DNA of 64,000 nt. It comes from Glutamicibacter creatinolyticus (GTDB lineage: Bacteria; Actinomycetota; Actinomycetes; Actinomycetales; Micrococcaceae). The notes below the pieces were generated by a model. It was not told the origin of the DNA and made no database searches. It saw only the letters and a program-made list of their open reading frames with translations. The stretch spans positions 62,001 to 126,000 of the forward strand of contig NZ_CP034412.1 in the NCBI RefSeq assembly GCF_006094275.1. The letters run 5' to 3'. Of this stretch, positions 32,990 to 38,757 are shown piece by piece; the stretch's first letter is position 1; every line of letters begins with the position of its first letter. The translations under genes and the position numbers were made by a program.

Positions 32990-38222
<5,233 letters not shown>

Positions 38223-38411: not shown

Positions 38412-38530
38412 GTTACGGCGGTCATAGCGTGGGGGAAACGCCCGGTCCCATACCGAACCCGGAAGCTAAGGCCCACTGCGCCGATGGTACTGCACTCGTG
38501 AGGGTGTGGGAGAGTAGGACACCGCCGGAC
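38412..38530 (+). rRNA. rrf: 5S ribosomal RNA
   Basis: 119 nt with terminal helix I formed by GGCGGT near the 5' end and ACACCGCCG near the 3' end. The conserved CCCGGTCCCATACCGAACCCGG loop region is intact, so this copy looks functional. Its last 43 nt (38488-38530) lie inside the first unit of a 69-bp tandem duplication. Confidence 0.93.
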
Positions 38531-38625
38531 TTAATTTGATGAAGGGTTTGAGGCTCTACTGCACTCGTGAGGGTGTGGGAGAGTAGGACACCGCCGGACT
38601 TAATTTGATGAAGGGTTTGAGGCTC
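38488..38625 (+). repeat. Perfect 69-bp tandem duplication of the 5S 3' end and trailer
   Basis: Unit 1 (38488-38556) and unit 2 (38557-38625) are identical and abut directly. Each contains the last 43 nt of 5S followed by a 26-nt trailer ending GAGGCTC. Only unit 2 runs on into the hairpin at 38621-38646, so unit 1 lost the terminator. Confidence 0.97.
38557..38599 (+). pseudogene. Partial 5S rRNA copy (3' 43 nt only)
   Basis: An exact copy of the 3' third of 5S created by the tandem duplication. It lacks the 5' strand of helix I and all of loops B and C, so it cannot form a 5S rRNA. Its ACACCGCCG could compete with the true 3' strand for helix I in the precursor. Confidence 0.9.
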
Positions 38626-38646
38626 CAACCAGTGATGGTTGGAGCC
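38621..38646 (+). terminator. rRNA operon terminator hairpin
   Basis: A perfect 10-bp stem GGCTCCAACC (38621-38630) with GGTTGGAGCC (38637-38646) and a 6-nt loop. No long U-tract follows. The first five bases are the last five of duplication unit 2. Confidence 0.75.
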
Positions 38647-38757
38647 TCACCTGTTTAAGCCGTTGGCGCACGGGGCAACATCTTTTGCCCCCAGCGGCGC
38701 TCAGCTGACTACAGTACAGAGGTAGAAACAGTCAGGTTTGGACAGGGGAGCATTTAG

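Follow-up and report, generated by a model that had tools for sequence, protein, structure and literature searches.

The window, a stretch of 64,000 nucleotides corresponding to bases 62001-126000 of the one-contig genome of Glutamicibacter creatinolyticus (3,309,128 bases, four 5S genes), contains on its + strand an rRNA operon in the order 16S (32990-34526, located by Rfam profile search), 23S (35080-38220) and 5S (38414-38530). The neighbouring gene, at about 38800, encodes an M13 peptidase whose named relatives put the genome within Glutamicibacter (Micrococcaceae) or adjacent to it. The 5S gene is full length and normal in sequence (Rfam RF00001, 98.7 bits). The 23S gene is 3 nt longer than the other three copies, GTT being repeated in GGGGGGTGGTTGTTGTGG. 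The operon closes with an intrinsic terminator hairpin on the same strand, recovered by both repeat search and folding (38618-38649), which consists of a perfect 14-bp stem (38618-38631/38636-38649) and a 4-nt loop; the original prediction had located this hairpin correctly but drawn it slightly too small, at 38621-38646.

Overlapping the 5S gene and the terminator, a repeat search identifies two units on the + strand, 38488-38556 (unit 1) and 38557-38625 (unit 2), that abut head to tail and are identical at 69/69 positions in the assembled sequence. Each comprises 5S nt 75-117 (43 nt) followed by 26 nt of trailer, as had been described from the sequence alone, and it is likewise borne out that only unit 2 enters the hairpin, of whose 5' arm the initial 8 nt (TGAGGCTC) already stand at the end of each unit. 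A perfect tandem copy of 69 nt is far beyond chance, and in the 444 kb of the genome that were sampled this pair is the sole two-copy perfect tandem duplication with a period above 15 bp. The remaining perfect tandem repeats in the sample are one coding array, of 57 bp in a probable coding region with RGG-like repeats (L134:3636-3980), and one tRNA array, of 118 bp in about 3.7 copies with a tRNA-like gene (L136:8529-8959). The duplication is thus confirmed in the assembled sequence, but presence in the sequence is not presence in the organism.

Two units are found in one of the four operons only, that of the window; the other operons are single-unit, and the alternative envisaged in the original prediction, a double unit at every operon, does not hold. 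Two of the other operons, at 463 kb and 1062 kb, share the trailer and terminator of the window operon and carry a single unit identical to unit 1, while the trailer of the 5S at 480 kb is different. From its first base through 38663 in the downstream flank, unit 2 agrees with the 463-kb and 1062-kb copies at every position but 38626, which is C in the window and T in both paralogs; the next mismatch is at 38664. Leftwards, the match of the window runs to 38408 with the 463-kb operon and to an extra C near 38457 with the 1062-kb operon, and, skipping one unit, 38626 is the sole base between 38457 and 38664 where the window differs from both paralogs. The duplication ends at 38625, i.e., adjacent to this first paralog-distinguishing base. 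Junction microhomology is 0 bp with the window allele and reaches 2 bp (TA) only on the assumption that the paralog allele is ancestral; unit 1 followed by TA is also the paralog allele (GAGGCTC-TA-ACC). The extra C of the 1062-kb 5S (C1:1062449-1062566) lies in a run of C (CGAACCCCGG), the Rfam score being 91 versus 98.7 in the other three genes, and is likely a base error.

A pattern screen for 5S 3' ends repeated 56-86 nt apart returned none of the 17 congeners and a single other genome, G405, among 395 family genomes, and order-wide screens at spacings of 38-68 and 68-98 (396 order genomes each) matched the window alone, a rarity that is approximate since many of the screened genomes are drafts with collapsed rRNA. 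These family and order screens rule out a general habit of the Micrococcales, and the claim that the duplication is unique stands, insofar as it occurs in one of the four operons of this genome and is absent from the 17 congeners. In G405, contig C1 has an 84-bp perfect copy of the 5S end, terminator included, which stops 3-4 nt short of the branch with contig C5; contig C13 opens with 50 nt that repeat this 5S end; and contigs C5 and C12 also end inside 5S. Such partial copies, differing in length but all of the same repeat and within a single draft assembly, are better read as contig ends than as biology.

The genome of strain LGCM 259 (CP034412) was published as complete, from Illumina 2x150 reads assembled with SPAdes 3.9, in an account that makes no mention of long reads (PMC7355418). 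In five relatives, mostly assembled into one to three contigs, the 16S-23S and 23S-5S spacers (ITS1/ITS2) measure 578-649/165-190 nt in every operon measured. Those of the window operon are 556/206 nt, and those of the other three loci are 262/53, 263/21 and 14/16 nt. The first two of these, at C1:457900-464200 and 1056800-1063050, have spacers far below those of the relatives and are probably mis-assembled too. At the 480-kb locus (C1 about 475488-480300), 16S, 23S and 5S nearly touch, with spacers of ~14 and ~16 nt, and there is no shared leader. In relatives, a lone 5S that has a terminator and upstream sequence of its own follows one rRNA operon at a distance of 0.7-2 kb (L163:7491-7617 and equivalents). 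The sequence just 5' of the 480-kb 16S matches that just 5' of the relatives' lone 5S (GTTGTCGC..GCG..ACACCG), and the 480-kb 5S matches the lone 5S itself; on the simplest reading of these matches, a 16S-23S block was probably put before the lone 5S during finishing. 16S and 23S are excised from stems formed by the rRNA leader and spacers, and such a set of loci is therefore hard to reconcile with a correct assembly. Further false joins were looked for at insertion sequences, and the one examined was single-copy.

Taken together, the evidence now points to what the original prediction had listed as the case against itself, namely an assembly artefact: the 69-bp doubling is probably an unmerged contig overlap. 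The 5S-trailer sequence common to three rRNA operons may have been assembled as one repeat contig, which would have stopped where the operons diverge, at 38625/38626, inside the strong terminator hairpin. The downstream, locus-specific contig would have started about 69 bases further upstream, leaving a 69-bp overlap common to both, and if the contigs were set end to end with the overlap unmerged when the chromosome was closed, that overlap would have been written twice. A contig carrying the TA allele would presumably fail to merge exactly with a CA contig, and a first piece ending in the paralog allele (..GGCTCTA), set before a second carrying ..GGCTCCA, would defeat an exact-overlap merge and yield the observed GGCTCTACTGC. 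The strong hairpin at the join may have been an added reason for thin read coverage. Although we infer the contig join itself, the duplication, its exact edge and the implausible structure of the other rRNA loci are read directly in the assembly. Three features expected of an artefact are found here—perfect identity of the copies, an edge at the point where the operon family diverges, and other faults in rRNA assembly—and a genuine breakpoint beside 38626 would need luck. The same origin is a simpler cause of the perfect identity, which had been taken to suggest a recent event or selection, as an unmerged contig overlap yields just such identity; selection as its cause is therefore rejected. 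Four points speak against the artefact: the copy in G405 stops short of the branch; the window operon has normal spacers (556/206 nt) and the faults lie at its paralogs; a genuine slippage at the hairpin would likewise end within the 5' arm; and the length of the overlap is unexplained in detail because 69 is not known among the default k-mer sizes of SPAdes.

The principal alternative is a genuine and recent tandem duplication, in which replication stalled in the terminator hairpin and the nascent strand slipped back by 69 nt, so that the segment was copied a second time, with neutral effect. We regard this as unlikely, though it accommodates several observations: one operon in four is affected, the units are perfect, and their 3' edge lies 8 nt into the 14-bp hairpin; as dnaA lies at contig base 415 and the + strand operon at 100 kb, the stretch is co-directional with replication and heavily transcribed; and the window operon otherwise looks normal. 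Neutrality would be expected, since the normal 5S end and trailer are preserved in unit 1, 5S is also supplied by three other loci and the terminator is intact, and the extra 69 nt would be removed together with the trailer. However, the short breakpoint homology that is usual, if not obligatory, in slippage was not found, and junction microhomology is absent unless exactly position 38626 is taken to have changed from T to C. The lack of the doubling in the congeners, the suspect assembly of the one similar case in the family and the poor rRNA assembly elsewhere in the same genome also weigh against it. Gene conversion or unequal crossing-over between operons is rejected, there being no other two-unit operon and no homology at the junction.

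Still far less probable is a functional role, in which the repeated 5S 3' end would tune 5S maturation from this operon, either through competition for precursor helix I or through binding of 5S-specific proteins. Competing 3' strands for helix I, as originally proposed, are physically possible in isolated-RNA folds, where the helix I 5' strand can pair with either copy within ~1-4 kcal/mol, but the preference flips with the upstream flank: a fold of 38412-38660 favours copy 2 by 3.3 kcal/mol (-99.8 versus -96.5), with the helix IV/V hairpin formed again by unit 2, whereas with upstream spacer added copy 1 is favoured, by 0.8 (22 nt) and 4.2 kcal/mol (191 nt). Copy 1 is also transcribed earlier, which would leave it time to fold and bind proteins ahead of copy 2. 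Conservation is absent, the paralogs being single-unit and the pattern confined, in the family, to the window and the suspect G405. There is no sign of selection or of the altered 5S maturation that had been suggested, the first copy keeping the 5S 3' end and AU-rich trailer of the paralogs. That the duplication is real and its second 3' strand forms a metastable alternative helix I, slowing or diverting 5S maturation from the window operon, is accordingly a very improbable proposition; were the duplication real, the small and shifting fold differences, taken with protein binding and the order in which the copies are made, would not predict a defect, and a neutral scar would be expected.

Among known systems, the locus resembles the false tandem duplications left by unmerged contig overlaps in short-read assembly, with which it shares perfect copies, an edge at a repeat branch point, a collapsed multi-copy repeat and other faults at the same repeat family, the 69-nt length here not being tied to a known assembler setting. 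With replication slippage at a hairpin it shares a short direct repeat in tandem whose end falls within a stem arm, but differs in its junction without microhomology and in a breakpoint at a paralog-distinguishing base. Full tandem 5S copies and lone 5S genes in bacteria, such as the lone 5S near one operon in this genus, likewise add 5S sequence to the genome; here, in contrast, only the 3' 43 nt are repeated, and a second 5S therefore cannot be made.

If the doubling is an artefact, as is probable, it is a warning that the rRNA set of a one-contig genome is faulty, and operon counts, spacer typing and 5S annotation based on it can be misled. If it is real, it would amount to a natural experiment on whether 5S folding is disturbed by a duplicated 3' strand, with little consequence to the cell.
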